From Deltaproteobacteria bacterium (GTDB taxonomy: Bacteria; Desulfobacterota; Syntrophia; Syntrophales; JACQWR01), in NCBI GenBank assembly GCA_016209105.1, contig JACQWR010000004.1, positions 124,001-188,000 on the forward strand: a DNA stretch of 64,000 nt. The letters run 5' to 3'. Within the stretch, counting starts at the first letter, position 1. Each line of letters opens with the position of its first letter. This document shows, piece after piece, positions 2,336-51,013 of this stretch. Position numbers and translations under genes: made by a program. Under the pieces are notes generated by a model. It was given only the letters and a program-made list of their open reading frames with translations, was not told where the DNA came from and searched no databases.

Positions 2336-2347
2336 TGTTAACTTTTT

Positions 2348-3718
<1,371 letters not shown>

Positions 3719-3742
3719 AATCCTATGATATTATGATTCGAG

Positions 3743-5287: not shown

Positions 5288-5665
5288 GGGATTGGATATC
5301 TCCGTTTTAAGAGCGCATTTCGTGCTGCGCTGCGATGATATCCGTAAAAAACAGGTAAGTCAAGGAAGAGACACCCGTTCCTGACAAAGAGCGACCGCAC
5401 TGATCGGGAAAAAACTCTGTGGACAAACAGGATCTTGATGCGTAAGATATTTCACACTGCAAATCCAGTTACGCACTTTTTCCCGGGGAAAATACTGCAA
5501 CAGCAGGATATCCGTTGTAATACTCCTTGCAGTTTTTCCATAATTATAATACGTTACTTAATTATAATCCCTACATCCGCATTTTTGGTATAAATCGTGC
5601 CTGTCATAACTAATTGCCCATGATTCGGTAATGATGCCGGAGATGCAGGCAGGAGGTAGTCTCTC

Positions 5666-6622: not shown

Positions 6623-6649
6623 ACAGAATTGATTTTAGGAGAGTGATCA

Positions 6650-7849: not shown

Positions 7850-7851
7850 TT

Positions 7852-8844: not shown

Positions 8845-9437
8845 AATATTCAGAATTCAAGGCCTGCGATCATTTCGGCCTGGAAGACCTGATTGCTTTT
8901 TCCTATGGGAATCTCGTAGATGACCGGCCGGAACATTTCGAAGCCCGCCTGCCTGCTCCGCCTTTCCTGATGGTGGACCGCATCCTGTCCATCAAGGGCG
9001 AGGGGAGGCAGGGATCCATTATTGCCGAACAGGACGTGCGGTTCGATGCCTGGTATTTCCAGTGCCATATGCCCGGAGACCCGGTCCATCCAGGGTGCCT
9101 CTGCGTTGATGCCGTGTGGCAACTGCTGGGCTTTTATTGCACCTGGCGGGGCGCGCTGGGAGCCGGCAGGGCCTTGGGCTGCGGCGAGGTTTTCTTTAAC
9201 GGTCAGGTTCGCCCGTTCAATAACTGCGTGCGGTACGAGGTGGACGTGAAACGCTTCGCGCAGCTCAAGCAGTCGGGCGCGAGTTTGGTCATCGGGGATG
9301 CGCGGGTATTTGTGGACGATGAGTTGATCATAGAGGTCAAGCAGGCCCGCACCGGCGTTTTTCGCGGGATCGTCTATTCCGATTATCCGAGGAGATCGAT
9401 CCGTTCGCGCGGGGGCATCATGAGGGAGGAGTCATGA
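8841..9437 (+). CDS. 3-hydroxyacyl-ACP dehydratase, FabA-like hotdog fold
   Basis: FQCHMPGDPVHPGCLCVDAVWQLLGFY matches the FabA active-site region; ALGCGEVFFNGQV. Confidence 0.88.
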   Translation: MKYSEFKACDHFGLEDLIAFSYGNLVDDRPEHFEARLPAPPFLMVDRILSIKGEGRQGSIIAEQDVRFDAWYFQCHMPGDPVHPGCLCVDAVWQLLGFYCTWRGALGAGRALGCGEVFFNGQVRPFNNCVRYEVDVKRFAQLKQSGASLVIGDARVFVDDELIIEVKQARTGVFRGIVYSDYPRRSIRSRGGIMREES

Positions 9438-10162
9438 CGGGAAAACCGGTGGCCATTGTTACCGGCGGCGGGAAGGGAATCGGCGCCGCATGCTGCCGCG
9501 CTCTTGCGGGCGAAGGCTTTCGGGTGGGGATACACTACCGCGGCAGCGAGGAAGCAGCACAACGGCTCCTTGCCGACATCGGGGACGGATTTCTGTTGAA
9601 GGCCGACCTGGCGGACATCGGACAGGTGGAAGCCATGGTTTCCGGCTTAAAGGAGACGGCGGGCGACGTACAGGTTTTGGTAAACAACGCCGGGATGACC
9701 GTAAACAGCGACATCATCTCCATGAAGATGGAACAGTTTGATGAACAGCGGGCGCTGATGCGGGGTACCTGGTACCTTACCAAGAGAATCGTGCGCCTGT
9801 TTATGCTGCGCAAGAACAACGGACGCATCATTAATATCTCCAGCGTCGTGGGACACATGGGGAATCCCGGCCAAATCCCCTATACGATGGAAAAAGCGGC
9901 CCTCGATGCCTTTACAAAGTCTTTGGCCAGGGAGCTGAAGGGGAGAAACATCCTGGTAAACTCCGTCGCACCGGGCTTCATTGATACGGATATGACGGAA
10001 CACCTGCCTGAAGAAGTGCAGCAGCAGATTCTTGCCAATATTCCTCTGGGGCGCGTAGGGACTCCTGATGAAGTTGCCGAGGTAGTCGCTTTTCTGGCCA
10101 CGCGGGGTACGTATATAAACGGCACTGTCATCCATGTAAACGGAGGCCTCTATGGCGGCTGA
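9434..10162 (+). CDS. 3-oxoacyl-ACP reductase (FabG-like SDR)
   Basis: VTGGGKGIGAACCR, LVNNAGMT, Y-x3-K context (YTMEKAAL), PGFIDTDMTE. Confidence 0.93.
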   Translation: MTGKPVAIVTGGGKGIGAACCRALAGEGFRVGIHYRGSEEAAQRLLADIGDGFLLKADLADIGQVEAMVSGLKETAGDVQVLVNNAGMTVNSDIISMKMEQFDEQRALMRGTWYLTKRIVRLFMLRKNNGRIINISSVVGHMGNPGQIPYTMEKAALDAFTKSLARELKGRNILVNSVAPGFIDTDMTEHLPEEVQQQILANIPLGRVGTPDEVAEVVAFLATRGTYINGTVIHVNGGLYGG

Positions 10163-10631
10163 TCGAGAGACGAGGGAAATAATTCTTCGCAGTGTTCCCC
10201 AGCAAAAGCCCTTTCGTTTCATTGATGAGATACTCGAGCTGGATGACAACCATATCATGGGCGCCTACCGTTTTCGCGAAGATGAATATTTTTATCAAGG
10301 ACATTTTCCCGATATGCCCATTACGCCCGGCGTCATTCTCGTAGAAACCATGGCGCAGACCGGCGTGGTTGCGCTCGGCCTTTATCTTACCATGAAGCAG
10401 AATGGCACTATTACGGAAGGTGCTCCAAAACTTACCACCCTGTTTACCTTTGCGGACGGGGTGGAGTTCAGTGGTATCGTTATTCCCGGTGAGCGCGTCA
10501 TCATCCGTGGAGAGAAAATATATTTTCGAAAAGGAAGTCTAAAAACAAAGGTCAGTATGGAACGGGAAAGCGGCGAAATGGTCTGCTTCGGGTTACTGGC
10601 CGGTACGGGGGTTACGTTACATGACAAGTAG
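10152..10631 (+). CDS. 3-hydroxyacyl-ACP dehydratase, FabZ-like hotdog protein
   Basis: QKPFRFIDEI, YFYQGHFPDMPITPGVILVETMAQTG. Confidence 0.85.
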   Translation: MAADRETREIILRSVPQQKPFRFIDEILELDDNHIMGAYRFREDEYFYQGHFPDMPITPGVILVETMAQTGVVALGLYLTMKQNGTITEGAPKLTTLFTFADGVEFSGIVIPGERVIIRGEKIYFRKGSLKTKVSMERESGEMVCFGLLAGTGVTLHDK

Positions 10632-11898
10632 AGTCGTAGTCACGGGAATGGGGGTGGTCGCGCCGAATGCTCATGGGCTTCAAAAGTATGAGGCAGCCCT
10701 GCGCGAGGGGCGATCAGGGATCAGATTTTTACCGGAGCTCGAGAAGCTGAGTTTCGGATGCCAGGTGGGGGGGATTCCAACTGATTTTAACGGCATTCGG
10801 GAACAGTATTTTGATCACGAAAAACTCATGTCCATCAATGACAATATAGGGTATGCCTCTGTTTCCGCGATCGATGCCTGGAGGGATGCCGGATTCGAGG
10901 TGCCCGATGCGGCCGACGACCGGGTTGACTGGGATACGGGGATCATTGTTGGTTCCGGTATCGGCGGCATGGATACGATCGCCACGACGGTTGTTCCCAT
11001 GGTTAACGATGGGAAGGTCCGTCGCATGGGAAGCAGGATCGTCGAGCAGGTCATGAACAGCGGTACCAGTGCCCGCGTTGCCGGCATCTTGGCAACGGGG
11101 AATCAGGTTACCTCCAATTCCTCCGCTTGCAGCACGGGGAACGAGGCTATTATAGAAGCCGCCTTCCGCATCCGGTCGGGGCTGGCCAAACGTATTCTGG
11201 CCGGGGGGAGCGAGGGCTCGTCGCCTTACATCTGGGCGGGTTTTGATGCCATGCGCGTTATTGCCCGCAAATACAATGACAATCCGGCGGCGGCTTCCCG
11301 TCCCATGAGCGCCTCGGCAAACGGTTTTGTGCCGGGAGCGGGAGGGGCCATTCTCGTCATCGAGGATTTGCAGACTGCCTTGGATCGTGGGGCGCGCATC
11401 TATGCGGAAATATTAGGCGGCTATGTGAATTGCGGCGGTCAGCGGCAAGGGGGGTCTATGACGGCCCCGAACCCGGAAGGGGTGAAACGCTGCATCAGAG
11501 GCGCCATCGCTCAGGCCGGCATTGATCCCGGAATGATTAATGCCATTAACGGTCATCTCACGGCCACCTTTGCCGATCCCTATGAGTTAAAGAACTGGTC
11601 GGAGGCGCTGGGACGGGGTCCGGAGGATTTCCCGTACATCAATTCCACCAAATCCATGGTTGGCCACTGTCTCGGTGCGGCGGGGGCTATAGAGTGCGTT
11701 GCCGTTGTTTTACAGCTTTACCGGGGATTCATTCACCCATCCATCAACTGCGAGGATCTCCATCCCGACATCGAGGCGTTTGCGGGCAAGATACCCCATA
11801 AGCTGATTGAGAGTCCCGATATTAACATCATTGCCAAGGCCGGATTCGGTTTCGGCGATGTGAATAGCTGTTTGATATTCAAAAAATGGGAATCCTAA
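10621..11898 (+). CDS. 3-oxoacyl-ACP synthase II-like (divergent KAS I/II)
   Basis: NSSACSTGNEAI (Cys), INGHLTATFADPYE (His, divergent), STKSMVGHCLGAAGAIE (His). Confidence 0.9.
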   Translation: MTSRVVVTGMGVVAPNAHGLQKYEAALREGRSGIRFLPELEKLSFGCQVGGIPTDFNGIREQYFDHEKLMSINDNIGYASVSAIDAWRDAGFEVPDAADDRVDWDTGIIVGSGIGGMDTIATTVVPMVNDGKVRRMGSRIVEQVMNSGTSARVAGILATGNQVTSNSSACSTGNEAIIEAAFRIRSGLAKRILAGGSEGSSPYIWAGFDAMRVIARKYNDNPAAASRPMSASANGFVPGAGGAILVIEDLQTALDRGARIYAEILGGYVNCGGQRQGGSMTAPNPEGVKRCIRGAIAQAGIDPGMINAINGHLTATFADPYELKNWSEALGRGPEDFPYINSTKSMVGHCLGAAGAIECVAVVLQLYRGFIHPSINCEDLHPDIEAFAGKIPHKLIESPDINIIAKAGFGFGDVNSCLIFKKWES

Positions 11899-11924
11899 TA
11901 CATTAATTCGAAAAGGAGCAGGAC

Positions 11925-12173
11925 ATGGACGAGAAAAAAATTTATGACGAGTTTATGAACATTATTAAGATTTATGCGAAGGATGCGAGTCTCTTGGAAA
12001 AGGCAACGAAAGACACGCATATCCTGAACGACCTGAAGGTAAATTCGGCCCGCCTTGTTGATATCATTATAAAATGTGAGGATGTGTTTGGCATTGAGAT
12101 AGATGATGAGGACGCGGATAAGATCAGGACTATCGGAGATGCCGTAGGAGTCATAAAGGGGAAGCTTGGTTAG
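11925..12173 (+). CDS. Acyl carrier protein (atypical)
   Basis: 82 aa, helical ACP-like; putative phosphopantetheine Ser in LKVNSARLVDII; sits between KS and PlsC/PPTase genes. Confidence 0.85.
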   Translation: MDEKKIYDEFMNIIKIYAKDASLLEKATKDTHILNDLKVNSARLVDIIIKCEDVFGIEIDDEDADKIRTIGDAVGVIKGKLG

Positions 12174-12181
12174 GGGCATAC

Positions 12182-13006
12182 ATGGACAGTAAAGAAAAGA
12201 TTCTTTTGTCCTGTCAGTACATTCTGGGCCAGATCGCGATTTTTGTTCTGGCCCCGCTCGTTTATCTTACCGTACGACTGTTCGGCTACAGGGTAAGGAA
12301 TCTGAGAGCAATACGGAAAGAATGCGGTCGGCATTTTAAGGCTCATGACGGCCCGTGGATCGTGTGCGCGAATCACCTCACCAACATAGATTCGGTGATC
12401 TTGGCCTATGCCATCGCTCCGATGCAGCGCTACATGTTCAAGTTTAAACTTTTACCGTGGAATCTGCCGGAGCGCGCAAATTTCCAGCGCAACATTCTCT
12501 CCAGCATTATGTGCTACTTGGTGAAGTGCATTCCCGTGAGTCGCGGCGGTGACCGGGAAGAGATGAAGATGGTGCTGGAAAAATGCATCTACGTTCTGGA
12601 GCGCGGGCAGGTACTGCTCATTTTCCCTGAGGGAGGGCGTTCCCGCACCGGTCGGATCAATCCCGACAACGTATCGTACGGGGTGGGACGTTTTGTTCAG
12701 AATTTTGAAAACTGCAAGGTGATGTGCATCTACATGCGCGGAGACGGCCAGGACCACTACAGTACCATTCCTCGTCTGGGCGAGCGTTTTTCTGTTCACG
12801 TTGACGTGCTGAACCCGGAAAGAATAGCGTTAAACGGCTTGAGGGCCCAGCGGTACTACGCAGAAATGATCATCAAGCATCTGGCGCTCATGGAGGAAAC
12901 CTACTTTGCCTCTCGTCGGCAACGACATAGTGGACTTACTGCATCCCGATGCGAGGGGGATGAGCCGGAATATCCGCTTCATCAGACGCGTTTTCGTTCC
13001 GGATGA
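12182..13006 (+). CDS. 1-acyl-glycerol-phosphate acyltransferase (PlsC-like)
   Basis: CANHLTNIDS (HX4D-like), LIFPEGGRSRTG motif. Confidence 0.85.
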   Translation: MDSKEKILLSCQYILGQIAIFVLAPLVYLTVRLFGYRVRNLRAIRKECGRHFKAHDGPWIVCANHLTNIDSVILAYAIAPMQRYMFKFKLLPWNLPERANFQRNILSSIMCYLVKCIPVSRGGDREEMKMVLEKCIYVLERGQVLLIFPEGGRSRTGRINPDNVSYGVGRFVQNFENCKVMCIYMRGDGQDHYSTIPRLGERFSVHVDVLNPERIALNGLRAQRYYAEMIIKHLALMEETYFASRRQRHSGLTASRCEGDEPEYPLHQTRFRSG

Positions 13007-15269: not shown

Positions 15270-16295
15270 TCAGAAAATGTTCTGTTTCTCCCTCGGGTGC
15301 TCCTCGTATCCCTGTGTCGTGTAAAAGGATGCCTTGTCGAAGAAGATGATGATTCTCCTGTCAAGTTCAAGCGCCATGTAGATATCAATGGTTTTCTGCC
15401 ACATGCCCCTGGTAAGGGCGAACTCCCAGATGTGCTTCCTGGTGAGGCTCAGGGCGCTCAATACCTCGCTCAATTTGAATCCTTCCTTTCTCCGTTCTCT
15501 GCCCAGCTGCATATAAAAATCCCTGATGTCGTTGTCCGAATAATAGCCGCCGAGCCATTTATCGAACTGGGAAAGGATGCTGTGCACCCTTCGGTAAAGC
15601 CTGGCTTTATCAAACGAGTGATAGGTGGGCGTGGAACGGTTTGACGAGACGTCCTGGATCCACAGTCGGGCAATCTGTTCAGCGTTCTTTTCCACTGTGT
15701 CTGTGAGTCGGCTGGAAAGAAGATTCTTTTTCCCCGCATCTGATTGGTCCGGAGCCATGGCATGTCTGAAAGAATCAACGATCGCCCAGTATTCACTTTT
15801 GCTTTTCATATAGGCCTTAACAGCCTTATTGTTGGCGCTGAAAGCGAGGGATGGTAGGTTTTCAAGTGATGCGTATTTTACCTCCACGGAATCATCACCG
15901 GGTTTAAGAACGCCTCCCACTTGCTCCACCTCGAAGGTGAGAAAGATAAGATCGCCGTAATAGTAGTCCATGACCGAATCCACATGAACAAGGCCGATGA
16001 TATTGGCCTTCACGCCCGTTTCCTCTTCCAGTTCCCTGAGCAGCGCATCTTCTATGCTTTCCCCGGTTTCGGCAAAACCCGTCGGCAGGCACCACTCTCC
16101 CTTGTAGGGATCATTTCCCCTTTTCACGAGCAGGATGCTTCGTCCGTACGCGAGGATGGAGGAAACAACGGGGAGGGGGTTTTCATAGAAGAAGGTCGCA
16201 CAATAGGGACAGTAAGCGCGGGTAACGTCGTTTTCCGTTCTCGTTACCGTGCTGACCCCGCAATAGGGACAGAATGCTTTTTCTTTTTTTTTCAT
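15270..16295 (-). CDS. Zinc ribbon-NUDIX hydrolase fused to a C-terminal RsbRD-N-like domain
   Basis: CPYC...CPYC ribbon, Nudix box GFAETGESIEDALLRELEEETGV, then an ~170-aa helical region (RLWIQDVSSNRSTPTYHSFDKARLYRRVHSIL...). Confidence 0.75.
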   Translation of the reverse strand: MKKKEKAFCPYCGVSTVTRTENDVTRAYCPYCATFFYENPLPVVSSILAYGRSILLVKRGNDPYKGEWCLPTGFAETGESIEDALLRELEEETGVKANIIGLVHVDSVMDYYYGDLIFLTFEVEQVGGVLKPGDDSVEVKYASLENLPSLAFSANNKAVKAYMKSKSEYWAIVDSFRHAMAPDQSDAGKKNLLSSRLTDTVEKNAEQIARLWIQDVSSNRSTPTYHSFDKARLYRRVHSILSQFDKWLGGYYSDNDIRDFYMQLGRERRKEGFKLSEVLSALSLTRKHIWEFALTRGMWQKTIDIYMALELDRRIIIFFDKASFYTTQGYEEHPREKQNIF

Positions 16296-17137
16296 GATGC
16301 CTTTCTCTCGAATTGGGGATCGGTGCAGATAAAGATGCCGTCGTCCTTCAACAGGACAAAGCGGTTCTGTGCGACAGCGATCCGCTGCAGTTGTCCGGCC
16401 AGCAGGGCCGTTACCGTTTGCACATCACACGGTGTTTCAGACAGGAAGAACAGAGTCTTAAAACGGAAATATTCCAGCAGTTCCCGTATATCATCGGGAC
16501 TGAAGATGAGGGAATTATGGTAGCCGATTGCCTGCACCCGGCTGAACCAGGGGGACAACAAGGCAGCGCCGTTCTCCGATGAAAATCCCGCGATGAGCTT
16601 TTCCACGGGAAGGGAGCGTTTATTACCCGCTCCGGCTTCAGGAAGAACCCTCTTCACCGCTTCGATCAGTTCCCGCATGTTGTCCCTGTTGTGGGTAATG
16701 GTAATGAAGATTCCCTTCTCCCGGGTGATTCGGGCAAGATACGGGATGATGCGGGGGAAAAAATAGAGGGCATAGCTGCACAGCACGAGATCAAAGGTTG
16801 CCGCTGCAAATTCCCCGATCAGGGAGGCGCGGGCAGGAAGGAAGCGTCCTTTGACACCGGCATGGCGGCATGCATCAAGAAAAGGCTCTTCATAGTCCCC
16901 GATCACATCCACGCCCGTCACGATCGCATCCGGATGGACTTTCCCCTTCAGCCCTTCGGTAAAAAACCCGAAGCCGCACCCCAGGTCGAGGATTTGACGG
17001 CAGGAACTTAAATCAAGCCCCGCCAAAGCCACCTCTCTAATGTCCTGCGTGTTTGTCGAATGATTTTTTATAATGGTTGCCGCTCTTCTGTGCCCGGTTA
17101 CGTCATCAAAAACCTTTACCATCCCTAAAGTAGCCAT
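16292..17137 (-). CDS. Class I SAM-dependent methyltransferase
   Basis: ILDLGCGFGFFTEGL motif I; likely start at ATG 17137 (ORF track extends to 17368); 4-nt overlap with downstream NUDIX gene. Confidence 0.8.
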   Translation of the reverse strand: MATLGMVKVFDDVTGHRRAATIIKNHSTNTQDIREVALAGLDLSSCRQILDLGCGFGFFTEGLKGKVHPDAIVTGVDVIGDYEEPFLDACRHAGVKGRFLPARASLIGEFAAATFDLVLCSYALYFFPRIIPYLARITREKGIFITITHNRDNMRELIEAVKRVLPEAGAGNKRSLPVEKLIAGFSSENGAALLSPWFSRVQAIGYHNSLIFSPDDIRELLEYFRFKTLFFLSETPCDVQTVTALLAGQLQRIAVAQNRFVLLKDDGIFICTDPQFERKAS

Positions 17138-38070: not shown

Positions 38071-38158
38071 GCCGAAGTGGCGGAATTTGGTAGACGCGCT
38101 AGGTTCAGGGTCTAGTGGGCGTACGCCTGTCCGGGTTCAAGTCCCGGCTTCGGCACCA
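38071..38158 (+). tRNA. tRNA-Leu (anticodon CAG), CCA encoded
   Basis: Acceptor gccgaag/cttcggc, anticodon arm ctagg-ttCAGgg-tctag, long variable arm, T-loop gttcaagtc, terminal ACCA. Confidence 0.95.
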
Positions 38159-38461: not shown

Positions 38462-41400
38462 ATGGCCCGGATTGAAAGACAACAGTCGGTTCTCACCATC
38501 CTCCAAAGCCTGCGGGATCTGGACGGCCTGAAAAAGCTTTTCTGGGAAGAACTGAATTACGAGCGCGAAAACAAGCCGCTCAGCATGCGCGGCTGGCCGG
38601 ATTCCGCCCGGAGTGCCCTGGCCGATGATCCCGTCCTGTTTGCGAGCGGCGGCGATGATCAGGCGTTTCATGTGGTCTATTGCCGTCTGGCCTCCACCGG
38701 CCTTCAGCGAAACCTCGAACGGCCGGTCGTCAGCCGGTTGGTCCGCGAGCATCCTTACTGCCTGTTCGTTTTCTCCGACACAGCGCAATCCGCCTGGCAT
38801 TTCCTGAACGTCAAGTATGACGAGACGGCGGAGAAGCGCCGGCTCATCCGCCGGATTACCGTGCGGGCTGACGGCGGTTTGCGCACGGCCGCCGAGCGGT
38901 TGCAGATGATGGACCTCGCATTGATGGGGAAAGACCTGCTCGGCATCCCCGCGCTCGTGATTCAAAAACGCCTCGATGACGCCTTCGATGTCGAGTCGGT
39001 CACCAAGGATTTCTACCGGGAACTTGCCAACTGGTATTTCTGGGCGCTCAGGCATGTTCGTTTTCCCAAGGACTCGCCCAAGGAAGCCGACGGGCACGAC
39101 CATGTCGGCGTGATCCGGATGATCACACGGTTAATCTTCTGCTGGTTTGTGAAGGAGAAGGGCCTGATTCCCGGGGAGCTGTTCGATCAACGTCGCCTCG
39201 ATGAATTGCTCAGCGGGTTCGCGCCGGACAAGGACACAAAAAAAGACTCCGTCTTCTACAAGGCAATCCTCCAGAATCTGTTCTTCGCCACGCTGAACAC
39301 CGAGATGGACAAGCGCGGCTGGACGAAGGACGAGCAGAACTTCATGGCGCACAGCCTGTATCGCTACCGGGATTTGTTCCGCAAACCCGGCGAGGCCCTG
39401 GCCCTGTTCAAGGACATCCCCTTCCTCAACGGCGGCCTGTTCGAATGTCTGGACAAAGACCTGGGTGAAGGTGTCAAGCCGCGCTACGTGCGCATTGATG
39501 GATTTTCCCGGCGGCCGGACAGCCAGCCGATCGTGCCGGATTTCCTGTTCTTCGGTTCCGAGCGCGAAGAGGACTTGAGCGTGGACTACGGCGACAAGAA
39601 GTTCAGGAAGGTCCGGGTGCGCGGACTGATCCAGACGCTCCGGCAGTATCACTTCACGATCGAGGAAAACACGCCCATCGAGCAGGAAGTCGCCCTCGAT
39701 CCGGAGCTGGCCGGCAAGGTGTTTGAGAACCTGCTTGCCGCCTACAATCCCGAGACCGGGGCCACCGCCCGCAAGCAGACCGGTTCGTTCTACACCCCGC
39801 GCGAGATCGTGGATTACATGGTGGACGAGGCCTTGATTGCCTACCTGAAGGGACGCCTGCCCGCAGAGGATGAAAAGGGCGCGGAAGAGAAGCTCCGGCG
39901 GCTTGTCTCCTGGGAGGAGAGCGCCCACGATTTCGACGACGGGGAGACCGAGATACTGATTGCCGCGATTGACGGGCTCAAGGCGTTGGACCCGGCCGTC
40001 GGCTCCGGCGCCTTCCCGATGGGCATTCTGCACAAGCTGGTCTTTACCCTCGGCAAGCTCGATCCGGATAACGAACGGTGGAAGGCCAAGCAGATCGCCA
40101 AGCTGGACGCCCCCGTCATGCGGGAGGAGGCGGAGCGGTTGTTCCGACAGAACTACGACGACTATGGCCGCAAGCTCTACCTGATCGAGAATTGCCTTTA
40201 CGGCGTGGATATCCAGACCATCGCCGTCCAGATCGCCAAGATGCGCTTCTTCATCTCGCTGATCGTGGACCAGCGGGTGGACCTGGCCGCAACCAACCTC
40301 GGCGTGCGCCCGCTGCCCAATCTGGAAACCAAGTTCGTCGCCGCCAATACCTTGATTGGCATCGAAAAACCCAAACAGGGGGCGTTCCGCAACCCGGATA
40401 TCGATGCCAAGGAGGCGGAACTGCGCAAGGTGCGGGAGAAACACTTCAACGCCAAAACTCCGGCCAGTAAAGCCAAGTACCGGGAGTTGGACAAAAAACT
40501 CCGCGCCCAGATTGCGGAACTTCTCAAACGCGACGGCTGGGGCGACACCACGGCAAAGCAGCTCGCCGCCTGGGACCCTTACGATCAGAACGCCTCCGCG
40601 CCGTTCTTCGACCCCGAGTGGATGTTCGGCATACGGGAGGGGTTTGATGTGGTTATCGGCAATCCACCATACGTCCGCGTCCAGACGTTGAACCAGACGG
40701 ATAAAGATCAGGCTGTCTGGCTCAAAAATAACTATGCCAGCGCCGCAAAGGGCAACTACGATCTGTATGTGGTCTTTGTCGAACGCGGTCTGCAACTCCT
40801 TGCATCGCAGGGACAGCTTGCCTACATTCTGCCGCACAAATTCTTCAATGCCCAATACGGCCAGCCCTTGCGCAAACTGGTTGCCGCTGGCAAACAGCTT
40901 CGCCATGTCGTCCACTTTGGCGACCAGCAGATTTTCCCCGGAGCTACCAACTATGTCTGTTTACTTTTCCTCGCCAGGGGCGGAACCGATGCCTGTAGGT
41001 GGGTGTGTGCCAATGACCTGCCCGCATGGCTGCAGAGCCGGGACGGTACTGAAGGCATTCTTCCGGCGCAAAGCATAACCGCCGCCGAATGGAATTTTGT
41101 TGTCGGTAAAGGCTCCAGCCTCTTTGACCGGCTCAAGGCCATGCCAGTGAAACTGGAGGATGTGGCAGACATCTTTGTTGGGTTGCAAACCAGCGCGGAC
41201 GATGTCTTTATCCTACGATTTGTTTCTGAGACGGCGAAGACGATCACGCTCGCATCGAAGGCGTTGGAGCGGGAATGGACGTTTGAGAAGGAACTGATGC
41301 ATCCCTTGGTTAGTGGAACTGATATCCGAACTTACGCACCTCTCCCCGTCAGGCAATTCATTTTGTTTCCATACGAGATCGTGGACGATTCAGCGGAACT

Positions 41401-42007
41401 CATCCCCTTGGAATCAATCATGAGGCGATGGCCGAAAACGGCGGACTACTTGGCTGCCAACAAGAGGCTACTTGAAGAGCGAGAAAGTGGCCGTCTGCGT
41501 GGAACGGCAAAATGGCATGGCTTTATCTACCTCAAAAACATGATGCGGCAGGCCTTGCCGAAGCTGTGCGTTCCGCGCTTGGTGGAAACATTATCATGTA
41601 CACTTGACGGGCATGGATCGCACTTCCTTGACAATGTTGACGTTGGAGGAGTCGTATTCTCAGAACAGCATGCTCAGCACAACTCGGCTTACCTGCTGGG
41701 CCTTTTGAACTCCTCGCTACTACGCTGGTTCTTCCCACATATCAGTGCACCATTCCGGGGCGGCTTTCGCTCTGCAAACAAACAGTTTCTCTCGCAACTC
41801 CCCATCCGTCTGTTGGACCTGTCGGACGCAGCGGAGCGAACACAGCATGACGCCATTGTGAAGTTAGTGGAGCGCATCCTCACCGCCAAGGCGGCTGACT
41901 CCGCAGCCGACACCTCGGCGCTGGAGCAGGAGATCGACCATATCGTGTATGAACTCTATGAGCTGACGGAAGAGGAGATTGCGATTGTGGAGGGAAAAGT
42001 TGAATAG
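38462..42007 (+). CDS. Eco57I/PglX-like class I N6-adenine DNA methylase
   Basis: LDPAVGSGAFPMGIL (motif I), VVIGNPPYVRV (NPPY motif IV), GSFYTPREIVDYMVDEAL; ~1180 aa with a C-terminal TRD-like region. Confidence 0.9.
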   Translation: MARIERQQSVLTILQSLRDLDGLKKLFWEELNYERENKPLSMRGWPDSARSALADDPVLFASGGDDQAFHVVYCRLASTGLQRNLERPVVSRLVREHPYCLFVFSDTAQSAWHFLNVKYDETAEKRRLIRRITVRADGGLRTAAERLQMMDLALMGKDLLGIPALVIQKRLDDAFDVESVTKDFYRELANWYFWALRHVRFPKDSPKEADGHDHVGVIRMITRLIFCWFVKEKGLIPGELFDQRRLDELLSGFAPDKDTKKDSVFYKAILQNLFFATLNTEMDKRGWTKDEQNFMAHSLYRYRDLFRKPGEALALFKDIPFLNGGLFECLDKDLGEGVKPRYVRIDGFSRRPDSQPIVPDFLFFGSEREEDLSVDYGDKKFRKVRVRGLIQTLRQYHFTIEENTPIEQEVALDPELAGKVFENLLAAYNPETGATARKQTGSFYTPREIVDYMVDEALIAYLKGRLPAEDEKGAEEKLRRLVSWEESAHDFDDGETEILIAAIDGLKALDPAVGSGAFPMGILHKLVFTLGKLDPDNERWKAKQIAKLDAPVMREEAERLFRQNYDDYGRKLYLIENCLYGVDIQTIAVQIAKMRFFISLIVDQRVDLAATNLGVRPLPNLETKFVAANTLIGIEKPKQGAFRNPDIDAKEAELRKVREKHFNAKTPASKAKYRELDKKLRAQIAELLKRDGWGDTTAKQLAAWDPYDQNASAPFFDPEWMFGIREGFDVVIGNPPYVRVQTLNQTDKDQAVWLKNNYASAAKGNYDLYVVFVERGLQLLASQGQLAYILPHKFFNAQYGQPLRKLVAAGKQLRHVVHFGDQQIFPGATNYVCLLFLARGGTDACRWVCANDLPAWLQSRDGTEGILPAQSITAAEWNFVVGKGSSLFDRLKAMPVKLEDVADIFVGLQTSADDVFILRFVSETAKTITLASKALEREWTFEKELMHPLVSGTDIRTYAPLPVRQFILFPYEIVDDSAELIPLESIMRRWPKTADYLAANKRLLEERESGRLRGTAKWHGFIYLKNMMRQALPKLCVPRLVETLSCTLDGHGSHFLDNVDVGGVVFSEQHAQHNSAYLLGLLNSSLLRWFFPHISAPFRGGFRSANKQFLSQLPIRLLDLSDAAERTQHDAIVKLVERILTAKAADSAADTSALEQEIDHIVYELYELTEEEIAIVEGKVE

Positions 42008-42011
42008 CGGA

Positions 42012-43838
42012 ATGACATCAAGCCTCAATCCGGTAGGTGTTTTCCTTCCCTATGACGCCGTCTTCAGTGATGGCCCGATGTCTTTCGATCACTTCAAGCA
42101 GATTGTGAAATCACTGAGCCGGACGGATACACTCTTTTGGTGTGCAAGACTGAATCTGATTCTTGCCGATCCGCACGTGGATGAGAAATCCAAACAGCAG
42201 TGTTGCCTTGATTACTTCTTTACGCCGCAACAAATCCAAGTGTTGAACAGTTATATCAAGGGACGTGAGAGTTCTGCGAAGGTCAGTGTGGTGCTTCGTG
42301 GTACGCTCTTGGAGCTCATTAGATGGGTTTGCCTTTTATCTTCTGACCATCCTGACGACGGTGAAACATTCAAAAAATCCAAAGTCCGTAACGCTTTTGC
42401 TCAAGTGTTACTGATGGCAAGCGAGTTTTGGGGGCAACGCATTTACTCTGGCGATGTTTTCGGCAAGGGCGACACAATTGAAGAAAAACGGCGTAATGCA
42501 CTTCCGATAACTCGACGAGTCATGATGGAAACATCCATTCACCCTCGGCCATTTGAGGCACTTGTCAGGGGAAGAACCTTGTTCAAGGATTTCATGCCGT
42601 TGCATTACAGTGGCTTTGATTCTGCTTTTCACGATACTACGGGAATATCTATTGACAGCTATTACGATTGTGCGAGCATGTTTCTGAGCCATTGTATAAA
42701 TACCGAGGCAAAATCTGGAGTCGGGAGTAAGACAGAAAGCGGGATTTTCACCTTTGCTGCTTGTGTAAAAGCTGCGCCGCATATGGAAAGGCAATTTAGG
42801 GCCTATTTCAACCTTCAATCATGTACCACCGATGAAGTGAGAGACGGTATCTGGGAAAAAGCCACTGAGCCGGACAGATTCATGAATGAATACAATCTGA
42901 AACCACTTCGGGAGCGCCCCATACTTGCTGCCTCAGGTGATCGTTGGATTATTGTCGACCCGTTGCTTTATGTCGAACAACAAAGCATCGGTCCCCTTTT
43001 CCAGTTGATGAAAAATAGATCCAAGAAGGACGCAAATGCGCTCACTGAGGCCTTTGGGCATTCTTTTGAAGACTACGTTGGGAGTATTCTGCAGCGCATA
43101 TATCCATACAGCGGTAGCCAACTCGCGAAAAGGTTGTGCTGCAATGTTCGAGATGAGGCAGATAGCAGTGTACAGATTGCGGACTTTGCACTGGATGATA
43201 TCTCCGATATTGTACTGATCGAAACGAAGACGGCTTTCATTCCGGATGACAAGGTGGACCCATGTTACGTGGAATCTTACTTGAACTGTCTTCAGCAGCG
43301 CTATTGCGAAGACGCGGGCAGGAAGAAAGGGTATGGTCAGCTTGCACGATCGGTTCAGATGTTGAGCTCGGGGAAATGGAAGCCAGCGGATATGGATATT
43401 TCACAAGCCAAACGCATCTTCCCTGTTCTGTTGGTTCATGACGATCTCCTCGATGCACCTCCCCATTGTTGGTATTTTGCAAATGAGTTCCGGACCGCAC
43501 TTGATCCAGACACTATTGAATTTGGAGAATGGATGGTCAAGGGCCGCTTCCGAGTAGCACCACTGGTTGTGATGACCATCAGTGACCTGGAATGCCTGGA
43601 GTCTTCGCTGAGTAAGTTCACGTTGGTTGACCTGCTGAAGGCCTATTCGACGACCACGCCTGATCGACTGGTTTCATTGAATAATTTTTTGGCAGCGAGT
43701 TCTGCACAGTTCCCACTCTATCGCAACAGAAGCTTGGCCGCAGACTGCGATAGGATACTGGCTGATGGCTTGCGGCGGGTCTTTCCAACAAGAGCGAACA
43801 TTTCGATTGTGGAGGATGCGGAAGCCAAGGGGGAGTGA
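42012..43838 (+). CDS. Uncharacterised protein with a PD-(D/E)XK nuclease-like signature
   Basis: FGHSFEDYVGSIL helix, then ADFALDDISDIVLIETKTAF (D-x12-E-x-K); starts 5 nt after the methylase stop (ORF track opens at 41979). Confidence 0.6.
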   Translation: MTSSLNPVGVFLPYDAVFSDGPMSFDHFKQIVKSLSRTDTLFWCARLNLILADPHVDEKSKQQCCLDYFFTPQQIQVLNSYIKGRESSAKVSVVLRGTLLELIRWVCLLSSDHPDDGETFKKSKVRNAFAQVLLMASEFWGQRIYSGDVFGKGDTIEEKRRNALPITRRVMMETSIHPRPFEALVRGRTLFKDFMPLHYSGFDSAFHDTTGISIDSYYDCASMFLSHCINTEAKSGVGSKTESGIFTFAACVKAAPHMERQFRAYFNLQSCTTDEVRDGIWEKATEPDRFMNEYNLKPLRERPILAASGDRWIIVDPLLYVEQQSIGPLFQLMKNRSKKDANALTEAFGHSFEDYVGSILQRIYPYSGSQLAKRLCCNVRDEADSSVQIADFALDDISDIVLIETKTAFIPDDKVDPCYVESYLNCLQQRYCEDAGRKKGYGQLARSVQMLSSGKWKPADMDISQAKRIFPVLLVHDDLLDAPPHCWYFANEFRTALDPDTIEFGEWMVKGRFRVAPLVVMTISDLECLESSLSKFTLVDLLKAYSTTTPDRLVSLNNFLAASSAQFPLYRNRSLAADCDRILADGLRRVFPTRANISIVEDAEAKGE

Positions 43839-44971
43839 AAGAAATGAGTCCGGACTTCTTTCAAAGCAAGAAACCATGGTCTCGCTATAAGGACATGATT
43901 CTGTCCCACTACCTGACGCCATACTTGTTCAAGGTCTGTAGCTTGGGAAAACCGGTCCTGGTAGTGGATTGTTTCGCCGGTCCGGGACACTTTGAAGATG
44001 GAACAGACGGTTCACCACTACTCATTTCCAAAGCGGTTCGTCAGATTGCGGAAAAAGGGAAAGCCGTCTCGGCTTTGTTTATCGAAGAGAGGAGAAAGTA
44101 CTTTCAAAAGTTGCAGGAATCAGTGAAGGACTACCAAGATATCTGTAATACAAAACATCAAAGCTTTGAAGTTGTCGCCAAGGAAATTGTCGGCATGGGA
44201 CGCGACAACACGGTGTTTGTCTACATCGACCCTTATGGAATAAAGCCTTTACGCTTTGATGCGTTGGCGGAAATCTACGCGAACATAACGCGTGGTTCAA
44301 GCATAGAGGTGTTGCTGAATTTCAATGCTCCTTCTTTGGTTCGCAATGGTCTGGCGGCGTTGAAATGTGCACAACAGGACGACTCGGAGGAAGAACTGGA
44401 CAGGACAATGACACCGTCTGACATCGATGCGATAGCCGGCGGCACCTATTGGCGGGAAATCGTAACAAGTGATATTCCCTTCTCTGACAAGGAAGAAAAG
44501 TGTGTATCCGAGTATATAGGGATGATGAAAAGGTACTTTGCAGAAGTGTGCAGTTACGGGATAAAAGAACGGTATGAACACACGATTCCGAAATATCGTC
44601 TGCTTTTCGGCTCACGGCACGAGGATGCATTTCTCCTTATGAACGATGCCGTCTGTAAAGCGAGAGATGAATTTTTAGGAAAACAGTGCGTGGACGGTTT
44701 CCTGTTTGACATGCGGGCGGATGACGAAATTCACGATCCCGAACGACTGCGTAGGGCCATTATGGATAGTCTTTCAACCTCCATGACGCGCAAGAAACTG
44801 ATTGTGCATGCAATGCATAAAGTCTTTGCCGAGTATAAGGAGTCGGAATATAAGCGCATGATCGGAAGTCTTATCAAGGACGGGAGCTTTTCCTCCAGGT
44901 CTGGAAAGACCCGGATCAATGACCACGAAGAATTGTTTCGAAAAACATCTTCCGATGGTGGACGTCCATGA
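43835..44971 (+). CDS. tcmP: Three-Cys-motif partner (TcmP) family protein
   Basis: KKPWSRYKDMILSHYLTPYLFKV, LVVDCFAGPGHFEDGTDGSPLL, FVYIDPYGIKPL; adjacent radical SAM gene. Confidence 0.78.
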   Translation: MKEMSPDFFQSKKPWSRYKDMILSHYLTPYLFKVCSLGKPVLVVDCFAGPGHFEDGTDGSPLLISKAVRQIAEKGKAVSALFIEERRKYFQKLQESVKDYQDICNTKHQSFEVVAKEIVGMGRDNTVFVYIDPYGIKPLRFDALAEIYANITRGSSIEVLLNFNAPSLVRNGLAALKCAQQDDSEEELDRTMTPSDIDAIAGGTYWREIVTSDIPFSDKEEKCVSEYIGMMKRYFAEVCSYGIKERYEHTIPKYRLLFGSRHEDAFLLMNDAVCKARDEFLGKQCVDGFLFDMRADDEIHDPERLRRAIMDSLSTSMTRKKLIVHAMHKVFAEYKESEYKRMIGSLIKDGSFSSRSGKTRINDHEELFRKTSSDGGRP

Positions 44972-46101
44972 TGATAGAATATAAGAATAACGCTCTCCGG
45001 GAACAGCAGGCTGTATACACGGCGGCGGGCGCAAAGCAGGATCATGCCTTGGTGCGGGAACTATGGGCCATCAAAGGACAGTCGGATCGTTTCCATGTTC
45101 AGCGGATAGCTGAGCGGTCGGGACTTCCAGTTAAATGGCTTTCCGCACCGCCGAGGATCAATGGGGAGCGGGGCATGGATAAGCTCATGGAGGAGCGGAA
45201 TGTCCTGCTGCTTCGCGACCGCAAAAGCCCGTTCATCGAACAGTTTCAGCATCCGCTGGGACGGTGCGCGAAGTTTTATAAGCTGACGGCCTACAACAAC
45301 TGCAATTTCTGGTGCGAGTACTGTTACCTGTACCTGACTTTTCGGACTTGCCCGGTCTCAACGCACTTCGTGAACTACGAAAGGATGTTCAAGGACATAG
45401 AGAAGTTTGACAGGCAGATTATTCCCGATGCCCTGCGAGTTTTGAATCTTGGCGAACTTGGCGATCCGTTGGCCGTGGATGATGTCACGGGACTGTCGGA
45501 GCAGCTTGTTCCGTTCATGCCGGCACATGCGCCCCGCACGAAGCTGCTGTTCCTGACCAAGAGCGACTGTGTCCAAAATCTTTTGGAGATGCAGCATGGC
45601 GGGCAGACGATCGTTTCGTTCAGCGTCAATACGGACAAGGTATGGCAGTATCTGGAGCACCGGACGCCATCGCCGACGGATCGGCTGAAGGCGGCGCGCA
45701 AGGTTCAGGATGCCGGGTATGAGGTGCGTTTGCGAATAGACCCGGTGGTCCGATATTCAACGTGGGAAAAAGATTATCGCAGGCTTACAGAGATGATTTT
45801 CGATCACGTCAAGCCTTCGAGGATCACGATTGGCGAGTACCGCCCCGCAGAAGGGCTTTCAAGTCACATCAGGACGCGTTTCCCGGAATCGTCCCTCCTG
45901 AAGGTGAATGGTTCGTTGATTGTTGAGGCAGGAAAGCTGCGATATCCGAGGGAATGCAGGATCGAGATGTTCCGCGCGATTGCGGATGGGATTCTGCGCT
46001 GCAACAAGAAGGTTCAGATTGCACTTTGCAAAGAGACTCCGCAGGTTTGGAAAGCGGCAGGTTTGGAGGGGAAAGGATTATGTTGCAACTGCACGGGTTG
46101 A
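44968..46101 (+). CDS. Radical SAM protein, spore photoproduct lyase-like
   Basis: CNFWCEYCYL (CX3CX2C), RVLNLGELGDPL, FLTKSDCVQNLL, IVSFSVNTDKVWQYLEHRTPS; C-terminal CCNC. Confidence 0.8.
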   Translation: MMIEYKNNALREQQAVYTAAGAKQDHALVRELWAIKGQSDRFHVQRIAERSGLPVKWLSAPPRINGERGMDKLMEERNVLLLRDRKSPFIEQFQHPLGRCAKFYKLTAYNNCNFWCEYCYLYLTFRTCPVSTHFVNYERMFKDIEKFDRQIIPDALRVLNLGELGDPLAVDDVTGLSEQLVPFMPAHAPRTKLLFLTKSDCVQNLLEMQHGGQTIVSFSVNTDKVWQYLEHRTPSPTDRLKAARKVQDAGYEVRLRIDPVVRYSTWEKDYRRLTEMIFDHVKPSRITIGEYRPAEGLSSHIRTRFPESSLLKVNGSLIVEAGKLRYPRECRIEMFRAIADGILRCNKKVQIALCKETPQVWKAAGLEGKGLCCNCTG

Positions 46102-46169: not shown

Positions 46170-46445
46170 ATGCCGAAAAGTATATCCATCATTGAAGCAA
46201 GAAAAAAACTGACGAATATTCCGGAACTTTTTGAGCAGGAGGCGGACCTGGACGTGGTTGCCGTCACCAGGCGGGGCAGGCCGGTCATGGCCATTATGCC
46301 CTGGGAGCTTTATGAAGCCCTTGAGGAAACCCTGGAGATTTTGGGGGACGAGGCGCTGATGATGCAACTCAGGGAAAGCATAGAGGAGTTGAAAGCAGGA
46401 CAGCTTATCCCGTGGGAAGAAACCGGCGCCGGGGCAAGGCGGTGA
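46170..46445 (+). CDS. Phd/YefM-family antitoxin
   Basis: SIIEARKKLTNIPELFEQEADLDVVAVTRRGRPVMAIMPWELYEAL. Confidence 0.85.
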   Translation: MPKSISIIEARKKLTNIPELFEQEADLDVVAVTRRGRPVMAIMPWELYEALEETLEILGDEALMMQLRESIEELKAGQLIPWEETGAGARR

Positions 46446-46759
46446 TGTGGCCTGTTTTCATCACGCCGACAGCACAGCGGATGCTCCAGGCTATTGCGGA
46501 CAGGCGGATCAGGGAAAAGATCGGGGATATCATCGACCGCCTTCGGCAGGATCCGGAAAAGCAGGGGAAAGCTCTGTTGGGCGAGCTTGCGGGATACCGG
46601 AGCATTCGGGCCGTCGGGCAGCGGTGTCGCATTATCTACAAGGTCGAAAAATCGAGGGTGATCGTCATCGTTATGGCTGTCGGCCTTCGTAAAGAAGGGG
46701 CAAAAAAAGACATCTACGCCCTGGCCAGGAAACTTCTCCGTCTTCGGCTGACAGAGTGA
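46445..46759 (+). CDS. RelE/ParE-family toxin
   Basis: ITPTAQRMLQAIADRRIREKI, LLGELAGYRSIRAVGQRCRIIYKVEKSRVIVIVMAVGLRKEG. Confidence 0.85.
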   Translation: MWPVFITPTAQRMLQAIADRRIREKIGDIIDRLRQDPEKQGKALLGELAGYRSIRAVGQRCRIIYKVEKSRVIVIVMAVGLRKEGAKKDIYALARKLLRLRLTE

Positions 46760-46967: not shown

Positions 46968-47348
46968 ATGGTTGACATCGGCAAACAGGTCTCCTATTGG
47001 AAGGAAAACGCCGAGGAAGATTGGGCGGTCGCTCAGCAGCTCCTTGAAAACGGTCGAATCCGCCATGGACTGTTTTTCGCCCATCTGGCACTGGAAAAGA
47101 TGCTCAAGGCGCTTGTTTGCAAAAATACCGGTGATCTGGCGCCCCGAATCCACAACCTGAACCGCCTGATCGATTTGGCGGGTGTTGTATCGAGTTCGGT
47201 GCAGACGGACATACTTGCTGAAATGAATGCTTTTCATATTGAGGGACGCTACCCCGAAACGTTGACAAAGCCGCCAACGGGAGAGGAAGCCATCCGGTAT
47301 ATGAAACGTGCAGAGGAGGCGTTCCGGTGGTTGACAAATCTGTTGTAA
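46968..47348 (+). CDS. HEPN domain protein (HEPN/MNT module)
   Basis: YWKENAEEDWAVAQQLLENGRIRHGLFFAHLALEKMLKALVCK, IHNLNRLIDLAG. Confidence 0.88.
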   Translation: MVDIGKQVSYWKENAEEDWAVAQQLLENGRIRHGLFFAHLALEKMLKALVCKNTGDLAPRIHNLNRLIDLAGVVSSSVQTDILAEMNAFHIEGRYPETLTKPPTGEEAIRYMKRAEEAFRWLTNLL

Positions 47349-47662
47349 AAGGAGTCAGAAACTACCTGAGGGCCTTGCAGGATCAGGGACTGATCATCAA
47401 CTTCGGCGTGGTGTTCGGATCACAGGTTAGAGAAATGCCGGATTCATGGAGCGATATTGATTTATTGGTTGTTTCTCCCCGGTTTGATGACCTGCGGGAC
47501 CGCGCTGATATTGATCTTCTTTGGCGTGTTGCGGCAAGGACGGATAATCGCATCGAACCGATCCCCTGCGGAGAGCGGCAGTGGCGCGAGGATGAATCCA
47601 GCGCAATCATTGAAATTGCCCGGCGCGAGGGACAGCCGATCACCATTGCGGAAAACCCATAA
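47327..47662 (+). CDS. Minimal nucleotidyltransferase (MNT) domain protein
   Basis: GVVFGSQVREMPDSWSDIDLLVVS (GSX10DXD). Confidence 0.9.
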   Translation: MVDKSVVKGVRNYLRALQDQGLIINFGVVFGSQVREMPDSWSDIDLLVVSPRFDDLRDRADIDLLWRVAARTDNRIEPIPCGERQWREDESSAIIEIARREGQPITIAENP

Positions 47663-47665: not shown

Positions 47666-50600
47666 ATGCCCGCCCATGACATCATCGACAATCGGACGGA
47701 GAAGCTGGTTGACCATCTCAGCGAGATGCTCGGCACCAGCGAGCGGGCGCGGTTCGCCGTCGGCTATCTCTTCCTTTCCGGACTGACCGGCGTTGCCGAA
47801 CGCCTTTTGAGCCTGAAGGAGCTCCGCCTGCTCATCGGCAACACGACCAACCGCGAGACGGTCGAGATGCTGGCGGAGGGCTACCGGCGCCTTGACCTCG
47901 CGGCGGAAGAGGTCGAGAGACAGATTTATCCCAAGCGCACGGAAGCCGGTAAGATGGCCGAGGCGACGGCCGGGAATCTGCGGAATTCCGTGGAGCTGAT
48001 GGATCAGATTGATGAGGCGCAGGCGCTGATTGCCGGGCTGATTCGGATGATCCAGGAGAAGCGCCTCAAGGTCCGCGTCTACACGAAGGGGCGGCTCCAT
48101 GCGAAGGCGTACATCTGCGACTACGGCAAGGTGTTCGACCCGGCCGGTAAGGAGGTCGCCCGGCACGAAAAGGGCATCGCGGTTGTGGGATCCTCGAATC
48201 TGACCCTGGCCGGGCTCACCCACAACACCGAGTTGAACGTGGTCGTGCAGGGGAATCAGAACCACCAGGAACTCGCCCGCTGGTTCGACGACCTCTGGAA
48301 AGAGGCGCAGGAATTCGACGAAACGCTGATGGTGGAGCTCCGGGAGTCCTGGGCGGCGGCGCAGGTCAGACCGTACGACATCTACATGAAGACGCTCTTT
48401 GCGCTCGTGAAGGACCGGCTGGAGGGTGAAGAAGAGCAGGAACTCTTCTGGGACGACGACGTCTTCCGCAAGCTGGCGAAATTCCAGAAGGTTGCCTTCA
48501 AGCAAGCGATCACCATGATCAAAGACTATGGCGGCGCGTTTGTATCGGACGTGGTCGGCCTGGGCAAGAGCTACATCGGCGCGGCCATCGTGAAGCATTT
48601 CGAGCGCACGGACCATGCCCGCCCGCTGGTCATCTGTCCCGCCCCGCTCAAGGAAATGTGGGAACGGTACAACGAGGTTTACCAACTCAATGCCCGCGTC
48701 CTCTCGATGGGCCATCTCCGGGAAAACGACAATGACGGCGTGACCAGGCTTCTGAAGGATTTTCAGTACAAGGACCGCGACTTTGTCCTCGTGGATGAAA
48801 GCCACAACATCCGGCACCCCGACACCCAGCGCTACAAAGTGCTCCAGACGTTTCTTTCCACCGGCCGACGTTGCTGTTTCCTGACCGCCACGCCCCGGAA
48901 CAAAAGCGCCTGGGACGTTTACCACCAGATCAAGCTTTTCCACCAGGATGACCGGACGGACCTGCCCGTTGATCCGCCGAACCTGAAGGAATTCTTCAAG
49001 CTGATCGAACGCGGGGAAAAGAAATTGCCCGACCTGCTGGCGAATATCCTGATCCGGCGGACCCGCAATCACATCCTGCGGTGGTACGGCTTCGACGCGG
49101 AAACGCACCAGCCCGTCGATCCCTGCCGTTTTCAGGACTATCTCGACGGCAGGCGGAAGGCCTATGTGCTCGTCGGCGGAAAACACCAGTTTTTCCCGAA
49201 GCGGCACCTTGAAACCATCGAGTACAGCATCGAAGACACCTACCAGGGTCTCTACCAGCAGTTGCGCGGCTATCTCGGCAAGGCCCGGAAGGGCAAGCCC
49301 GCCAAGGCCGCAGCAGGGGAACTTACCTATGCGCGTTACGGCCTGTGGCACTACGTGCGCGCGGAGAAACAGAAGAAGGAACCGTACGTCAGTCTGCAGC
49401 GGGCCGGAGCGAATCTGCGCGGACTGATGCGGGTTCTCTTATTCAAGCGGTTTGAGTCGAGTGTTTACGCCTTTCAGGAGACCATCCGCCGGCTGCTTGC
49501 GATTCACGAGTCCTTTCTGAGATCCATTGACCAGGGCTTCGTCCCGGCGGGAGAAGACGCGCAGGCCATCCTCTACGGAAGCGACTCGCTCGAAGAGGTT
49601 GACGTCATGGATGCCTTGCGCGCGGTGTCGCAGCGTTATCATGCCGAGGACTTCGACACGGATTCCCTGCGCAAACACATCGCGCACGACATCGAGCGTT
49701 TGAAGACTATTCAGCAACTTGTTGAGCCGATCAGCCCGGAGAAAGACGCCAAACTGCAAACGCTCAAGACGCGCCTGGCCGACAAACCGTTGCGGGGTGC
49801 AAAACGGTTGATCTTCACCCAGTATGCCGATACGGCAAAGTATCTCTACGACAATCTGAATCCCGGTGACAAGCTTGCCGACGTGGAGGTCATCTACAGC
49901 GGGGACAAGAGCAAGGAGCGCATCGTCGGACGGTTCGCGCCGAAAGCGAATCCGGAGTATCGCTTTGCCAAAGGCGAGGCGGAACTCATGACCGTTGTCG
50001 CCACCGACGTGCTGGCGGAAGGCCTGAACCTTCAGGACTGCGACAACATCATCAATTACGATCTGCACTGGAATCCGGTGCGGCTGATTCAACGCTTCGG
50101 ACGCATTGACCGGATCGGATCGGAACACGAAGTCATCTTTGCTTTCAATTTCCTGCCGGAGGTGGGAATCGAGAAGAACCTGAAGCTGTACGACAAGCTG
50201 CACAATCGGATTCAGGAGATTCACGACACCATCGGGGAGGACGCCAACATCCTCGACGAGACCGAACGCGTGAACCCCGAGGCGATGTACGCCATTTATG
50301 AAACGCGAGGTAGCGGCCTGGCAGTGCAGTTGGACCTCTGGGGCAAGCCGGAAGAGGAGTTTCTGGACCTGAACGAAGCCGAGGAAATCCTGCGGCAGTT
50401 GCGGAAAGAAAACCCGGCGGAGTTCGAACGCATCGCCGCTCTGCGCGACGGCATCCGGACGGCACGACCCTCTCTGCAAAAGGGTATGTTCGTTTTCTGC
50501 CAGGCAGGCCGCTTTCAGCAGCTCTTCCTGCTCGACGAGAAGGGTGCAGTCGTCTCCCGCGATGTCCCGAGGGTAGTCGGCTCAGTGAAGTGCGCCCCCG

Positions 50601-51013
50601 ATGCGCGGGCCGCCGATCTGCCGGATGGATACAACAAGGCGGTCATGACCGTGCAACGGGCATTCGCCGAAGAAGTCAAACATCGGGAGGCCGAACGCAG
50701 GCATACCTTCAACCTCACGCACGGCCAAATTTACGTGCTCCGGGAACTCAGGATCCTCTTTGAAGCCGCAACCGACGAGGAAATCAAGGGCAATGTCAAC
50801 ATCCTGGAGAAAGCGTTTCGAGGCGCACTGACCGGTGCGGTCAAGCGTGAACTAAACCAGTTGCGCCGCAACGCTGTCGCCGGCGAGGCACTCTACAAAC
50901 ATCTGATCCGCATCTACGACCAGCACAACCTGAAAGACGCGACGGCCCGACGAAGCCTGGAACTTGAGGACAAAGCCATTCCCCGCATCATTTGCAGCGA
51001 GGCATTCGTCTGA
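47666..51013 (+). CDS. PLD-like nuclease domain fused to SNF2-type helicase
   Basis: N-terminal KGRLHAKAYI...GIAVVGSSNLTLAGL (HKD-like), GAFVSDVVGLGKSYIGAAI Walker A, LVDESHNIRH DEAH-like, FLTATPRNKS, VVATDVLAEGLNLQDCDNIINYDLHWNPVRLIQRFGRIDRIGS. Confidence 0.9.
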   Translation: MPAHDIIDNRTEKLVDHLSEMLGTSERARFAVGYLFLSGLTGVAERLLSLKELRLLIGNTTNRETVEMLAEGYRRLDLAAEEVERQIYPKRTEAGKMAEATAGNLRNSVELMDQIDEAQALIAGLIRMIQEKRLKVRVYTKGRLHAKAYICDYGKVFDPAGKEVARHEKGIAVVGSSNLTLAGLTHNTELNVVVQGNQNHQELARWFDDLWKEAQEFDETLMVELRESWAAAQVRPYDIYMKTLFALVKDRLEGEEEQELFWDDDVFRKLAKFQKVAFKQAITMIKDYGGAFVSDVVGLGKSYIGAAIVKHFERTDHARPLVICPAPLKEMWERYNEVYQLNARVLSMGHLRENDNDGVTRLLKDFQYKDRDFVLVDESHNIRHPDTQRYKVLQTFLSTGRRCCFLTATPRNKSAWDVYHQIKLFHQDDRTDLPVDPPNLKEFFKLIERGEKKLPDLLANILIRRTRNHILRWYGFDAETHQPVDPCRFQDYLDGRRKAYVLVGGKHQFFPKRHLETIEYSIEDTYQGLYQQLRGYLGKARKGKPAKAAAGELTYARYGLWHYVRAEKQKKEPYVSLQRAGANLRGLMRVLLFKRFESSVYAFQETIRRLLAIHESFLRSIDQGFVPAGEDAQAILYGSDSLEEVDVMDALRAVSQRYHAEDFDTDSLRKHIAHDIERLKTIQQLVEPISPEKDAKLQTLKTRLADKPLRGAKRLIFTQYADTAKYLYDNLNPGDKLADVEVIYSGDKSKERIVGRFAPKANPEYRFAKGEAELMTVVATDVLAEGLNLQDCDNIINYDLHWNPVRLIQRFGRIDRIGSEHEVIFAFNFLPEVGIEKNLKLYDKLHNRIQEIHDTIGEDANILDETERVNPEAMYAIYETRGSGLAVQLDLWGKPEEEFLDLNEAEEILRQLRKENPAEFERIAALRDGIRTARPSLQKGMFVFCQAGRFQQLFLLDEKGAVVSRDVPRVVGSVKCAPDARAADLPDGYNKAVMTVQRAFAEEVKHREAERRHTFNLTHGQIYVLRELRILFEAATDEEIKGNVNILEKAFRGALTGAVKRELNQLRRNAVAGEALYKHLIRIYDQHNLKDATARRSLELEDKAIPRIICSEAFV

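Follow-up and report, generated by a model that had tools for sequence, protein, structure and literature searches.

A GapS1-related putative nuclease in an apparently exchangeable slot of a restriction-modification-like operon

The window, by which we mean the whole 64,000-nucleotide stretch of contig JACQWR010000004.1 from a Deltaproteobacteria bacterium that was analysed here, carries an operon whose genes follow one another in the order methylase, nuclease, TcmP, radical SAM protein, Phd/ParE pair, HEPN/MNT pair and PLD-Snf2 helicase (Table 1). The nuclease reading frame is open on the + strand up to 43838, either from an ATG at 42012, which gives a protein of 608 aa, or from a TTG at 41979, which gives one of 619 aa; the methylase stop codon is followed after 4 bases by the ATG, which is the likelier start. 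Residues are numbered here from the ATG, such that E353, D391, E404 and K406 are the E364, D402, E415 and K417 of the longer product. Just upstream of the island lies a tRNA-Leu gene (38071-38158), which was considered as an attachment site; the window contains no second copy of its 3' end, and hence no visible att pair.

Table 1. Genes, slot borders and catalytic motifs of the operon, in window coordinates
Feature	Position	Strand	Basis
Adenine-specific DNA methylase, Eco57I/N6_Mtase + TaqI_C specificity domain, IIG/DrmMI/PglX-like	38462..42007	+	PF07669 4e-40; PADLOC REase_MTase_IIG 1.6e-87
Methylase specificity region, differing among otherwise 82-86% identical loci	40675..41873	+	DNA and protein identity profiles
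Methylase 3' end, conserved, left border of the slot	41873..41994	+	77-80% DNA identity to L037/L038
Apparent exchangeable slot, nuclease + TcmP	41995..44938	+	no DNA match to L037/L038 inside; 77-86% matches on both sides
Predicted GapS1-superfamily PD-(D/E)XK-type nuclease, 608 aa	42012..43838	+	ORF; NF047931 match; catalytic residues kept
Motif I GHSFEDY, codons 349-355	43056..43076	+	G349, Y355 invariant; E353 acidic
Predicted catalytic D391 (D402 from TTG)	43182..43184	+	invariant; aligns with the corresponding Can2 Asp
Predicted catalytic E404-T-K406 (E415/K417 from TTG)	43221..43229	+	invariant; D-x12-E spacing in 9/9 aligned proteins
TcmP (three-Cys-motif partner)	43835..44971	+	TIGR04474 E=1e-28, above cut-off
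Spore-photoproduct-lyase-like radical SAM protein, TcmP partner	44968..46101	+	PF20903 3.5e-30; 88-90% identical in L037/L038
Phd/YefM antitoxin + ParE/RelE-type toxin	46170..46759	+	PF02604, PF05016
HEPN / nucleotidyltransferase (MNT) pair	46968..47662	+	PF05168, PF01909
PLD (HKD) nuclease-Snf2 helicase fusion	47666..51013	+	PF13091, PF00271; PADLOC C3a139 'HKD+Snf2' 8e-79, DrmD 7e-36

A sequence-only reading had recognized a PD-(D/E)XK nuclease signature in the protein from the strings EAFGHSFEDYVGSIL, ADFAL and IVLIETKTAF, all of which are present, and its D402, E415 and K417 are correctly placed when counted from the TTG. We reject the D-x12-ExK string alone as evidence of a nuclease, as the long ORFs of the window contain about 0.6 D-x(10-14)-E-x-K strings per 600 aa, which puts it at chance level. 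Conservation was therefore tested in relatives, and it is from this conservation, rather than from the string itself, that the catalytic motif draws its significance. Among 396 sampled genomes of one phylum there is only one close homologue, 39% identical over nearly the full length of the protein (L002/L053, genome G273); the GapS1 model gives weak matches in seven genomes, the window's own included, and a profile built from two sequences (A1) led to two further places in one genome. In the resulting alignment of nine proteins (A2), comprising the window protein and eight relatives with 39% to ~13% identity to it, six columns are invariant (P303, G349, Y355, D391, E404 and K406), and the acidic residue of motif I is Glu in eight of the nine proteins and Asp in the ninth. 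In a ten-row alignment, the nine rows that reach across the site all place exactly 12 residues between D and E; the tenth row ends short there. Conservation of D, E and K in homologues was the check that the sequence-only reading had itself named, and all relatives covering the site keep the three residues, which bears out its choice of catalytic positions. Moreover, a profile of seven relatives, built with neither the window protein nor the homologue at 39% identity, finds the window protein with E=2.1e-19, the best value among 500 shuffles being E=0.086. Neither Pfam, PADLOC nor PHROGs has a match for the protein, and tblastn against plasmids and phages returned no relative of it.

The same earlier reading had held that the rest of the protein resembles no recognized family, and this no longer stands: the NCBIfam GapS1 model NF047931 matches it with E=2e-11 and 43.3 bits over profile positions 100-318 of 455, well short of the curated cut-off of 320 bits, and matches nine of the nine A2 proteins, all far below that cut-off. 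The family of the window protein can therefore be named by its kinship with GapS1: it is, as far as these profiles allow, a member of the GapS1 superfamily that lies outside the named NF047931 subfamily. GapS1 (GAPS1) is an anti-phage protein (Mahata et al., 2024, Nat Microbiol, as cited in PMC12774648), and the product of the gene in the window is very probably a distant relative of it that cuts DNA or RNA. The match covers the central and catalytic region; the window protein differs, however, in its length of 608 aa against the 455 positions of the model, with its first ~175 and last ~195 residues outside the match, and in that its gene sits in an operon within a restriction-modification (R-M)-like locus.

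A second line of comparison leads to the CRISPR-ancillary nucleases Can2/Card1 (PDB 7bdv; PF09002). Set against PDB sequences, the A2 profile has a single match, Can2 (7bdv; E=6.5e-4), in which the FE-x-Y ... D ... E-C-K nuclease motif aligns with the window protein, and a Card1-family profile built from proteins of the phylum aligns the same catalytic residues with E=0.002 and a probability of only 13%, an unrelated TcmP control giving E=0.64 in this comparison. The two-sequence profile A1 has no match to the Card1 profile. The likeness is confined to 68-78 aligned positions, and unlike Can2/Card1 the window protein shows no PF09002 or CARF-domain match in Pfam. A single-sequence AlphaFold model of residues 296-509 has a pLDDT of 41, too low to be of use, and it is on residues and profiles that the PD-(D/E)XK assignment is based; for the alpha-beta-beta-beta-alpha-beta fold of that superfamily, the Can2 match is support of an indirect kind.

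What lies around the gene was compared by searching one phylum for relatives of three operon genes, those for the methylase, the radical SAM protein and the helicase, and mapping up to 20 kb around each. At L037 (G164) the order is methylase, DUF2283, Shedu, TcmP, radical SAM protein (88%), Phd/RelE and helicase (67%), and at L038 (G039) it is methylase, a 2155-aa Avs3a-like protein, radical SAM protein (90%) and helicase (67%). At L047 (G201) an Snf2 helicase and the methylase are followed by a Ppl-like protein, an AlbA/RecG-like protein and the radical SAM protein, and at L041 (G097) an Snf2 helicase, the methylase, TcmP, the radical SAM protein, an MNT/HEPN-like pair and a helicase fragment follow one another. 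L039 (G122) retains a truncated methylase and a 51-bp radical SAM remnant together with HEPN/MNT and helicase (90%); in the same locus, at 15374-16387 on the minus strand, there is a gene judged by eye to be a possible REP-associated (Y1-type) transposase. Thus the position of the nuclease is held in the related-methylase loci by Shedu, by Avs3a, by a Ppl-like gene, by TcmP only or by nothing, in what is a small sample with four cargo-bearing loci. PADLOC identifies the cargo as Shedu SduA (1e-88, L037), Avs3a (1e-209, L038) and Ppl (8e-34, L047). The Avs3a-like gene at L038 encodes a STAND protein and occupies positions 6052-12516, between the methylase and radical SAM genes.

The DNA itself has a mosaic pattern. 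Over 38510-40674 the window shows 82-86% identity to L037/L038, and the match breaks off over the methylase specificity region; the final ~86-122 bp of the methylase match again at 77-80%, nuclease and TcmP have no counterpart, and from 44938/44998, at the radical SAM gene, the identity is back to 86%. A putative effector gene is found here inside an R-M-like operon and is replaced in relatives, by Shedu, Avs3a or a Ppl-like gene, along sharp borders marked by these changes in identity. Loci with 80-90% identity in the catalytic part of the methylase drop to 10-20% aa identity in the specificity region (40675-41873), which amounts to a swap of the target-recognition domain. At L037 (G164:C5, reverse strand) a second, degenerate methylase 3' end lies behind DUF2283, whose gene is flanked by matches of 38 and 86 bp, and these duplicate ends suggest that the tail of the methylase gene has been a site of insertion or exchange; L038 has kept a short HEPN scar. 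The degenerate copy and the scar are, by all appearances, traces of past exchange. Since the same spot is taken in related bacteria by single-gene phage defences of quite other kinds, the nuclease looks like an exchangeable add-on rather than the fixed partner of the methylase.

This bears directly on the view that the sequence-only reading had put forward, namely that the protein is the effector nuclease paired with the upstream methylase; as such it would be a restriction endonuclease that cuts DNA lacking the mark of that enzyme. The two genes do share operon and direction and are only four bases apart, and the methylase specificity domain differs between loci along with the content of the slot, as co-evolution might give. 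However, the methylase relatives carry other genes or none at this position, and the 39% homologue at L053 (G273) stands in a stretch that holds no methylase. The gene that does stay with the methylase is the PLD-Snf2 helicase, which is present in every close-methylase locus whose downstream side lay within the stretch examined, and at L109 (G026) a related methylase (32%) directly adjoins a PLD-Snf2 helicase and so already has a nuclease and a motor beside it. The pairing of methylase and nuclease is therefore one that we consider unlikely, and the helicase is the likelier restriction partner of the methylase. The locus recalls class 1 DISARM (DrmMI, DrmD, DrmC) and PADLOC C3a139, as the methylase is DrmMI/PglX/IIG-like and the helicase fuses a DrmC-like PLD part to a DrmD-like Snf2 part, but it differs from class 1 DISARM in that neither DrmA nor DrmB is encoded between methylase and helicase and in that its scores lie far below the NCBIfam cut-offs.

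The L053 setting is another defence neighbourhood for the homologue of the nuclease. In the region at 1813-11321 the homologue has as neighbours an SpbK-like TIR protein, a PDC-S06 AAA protein, an integron-type integrase and small unassigned proteins.

Another arrangement would make the nuclease one part of a three-gene system, in which TcmP and the radical SAM protein modify or control the nuclease or its target. The 4-base overlaps that join nuclease to TcmP and TcmP to the radical SAM gene would fit this, as would the Shedu gene of L037, which is likewise directly followed by TcmP, and the resemblance of TcmP to the PADLOC candidate families PDC-M30A and PDC-M41A. Yet TcmP-radical SAM pairs occur with no recognized nuclease beside them (L041, L087, L090), no window-type TcmP was found near the nuclease homologues in L053, L055 and L056, and the TcmP of the window is only 23% identical to that of L037; we doubt, on these grounds, that the three genes form one system. 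The radical SAM protein itself recurs in pairs with TcmP proteins from two different subfamilies. A broader version strikes us as improbable as well: here a dedicated slot would exchange entire effectors (GapS1-like, Shedu, Avs3a, Ppl-like) along with the specificity domain of the methylase, and the conserved radical SAM protein (with TcmP), or else the R-M genes, would serve every loaded effector alike as guard or trigger.

Embedding of a separate defence effector in an R-M or BREX locus, as proposed here for the window nuclease, is already known from PrrC, which lies within EcoprrI and is triggered by its inhibition, and from BrxU, which lies within a BREX island (PMC12707154). The window nuclease might likewise be a guardian, held inactive by a methylase/helicase complex and freed when a phage inhibits restriction; like PrrC, which senses the inhibition of the R-M locus that houses it (PMC12707154), it would be well placed for this, since the operon, in the window as in L037 and L038, has the slot between its methylase and helicase genes. 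PrrC, however, as an anticodon nuclease, belongs to a single type I system, whereas the position in the window alternates unrelated effectors. Shedu, Avs3a and Ppl are self-sufficient single-gene defence systems, and as these cargoes are mutually unrelated as well, a contact surface for the methylase that all would share is therefore unlikely. The occurrence of the nuclease homologue apart from any methylase also argues against a guardian, and we hold this reading to be quite improbable. That the protein is an inactive or non-defence relative which has merely kept a nuclease fold, for example a housekeeping or element-maintenance nuclease, is very unlikely indeed, given that its catalytic residues are all intact and that its close family lies among defence genes in both carrier genomes.

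The explanation that we favour, and consider probable, is that the gene encodes a divergent anti-phage nuclease of the GapS1 superfamily and PD-(D/E)XK type, carried as interchangeable cargo in the slot of an R-M-like operon, which probably restricts phage alone. In such a protein the N-terminal ~300 residues that precede the nuclease core would probably serve sensing or oligomerization, E353, D391, E404 and K406 would bind metal within the core, and the core would cut nucleic acid upon infection, most likely phage DNA. The nuclease would travel as the cargo between the methylase and the radical SAM gene, the toxin-antitoxin and HEPN/MNT pairs and the PLD-Snf2 helicase following behind, and, by analogy with Shedu, Avs3 and Ppl, each of which acts as a single-gene system, it probably restricts phage autonomously. 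Shedu (SduA, PF14082), a single-gene anti-phage nuclease (PMC12948488), occupies the very slot of the window nuclease at L037; the window protein has no sequence match to SduA models, and neither Pfam nor PADLOC finds SduA_C (PF14082) in it.

The nuclease is thus a divergent branch of a known superfamily, and a protein that neither Pfam nor PADLOC assigns to a family receives a likely name and kin. In the part of the literature covered, we found no description of unrelated single-protein effectors alternating at one position of this operon. The wiring of the locus is corrected, in that the nuclease gene would be modular cargo and the restriction partner of the methylase would more likely be the PLD-Snf2 helicase. 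A fixed slot for unrelated single-protein defences may offer a route to new defence proteins, simply by reading what the slot contains, and it would allow one to ask whether effectors embedded in this way are guards of the R-M system or simply its passengers.
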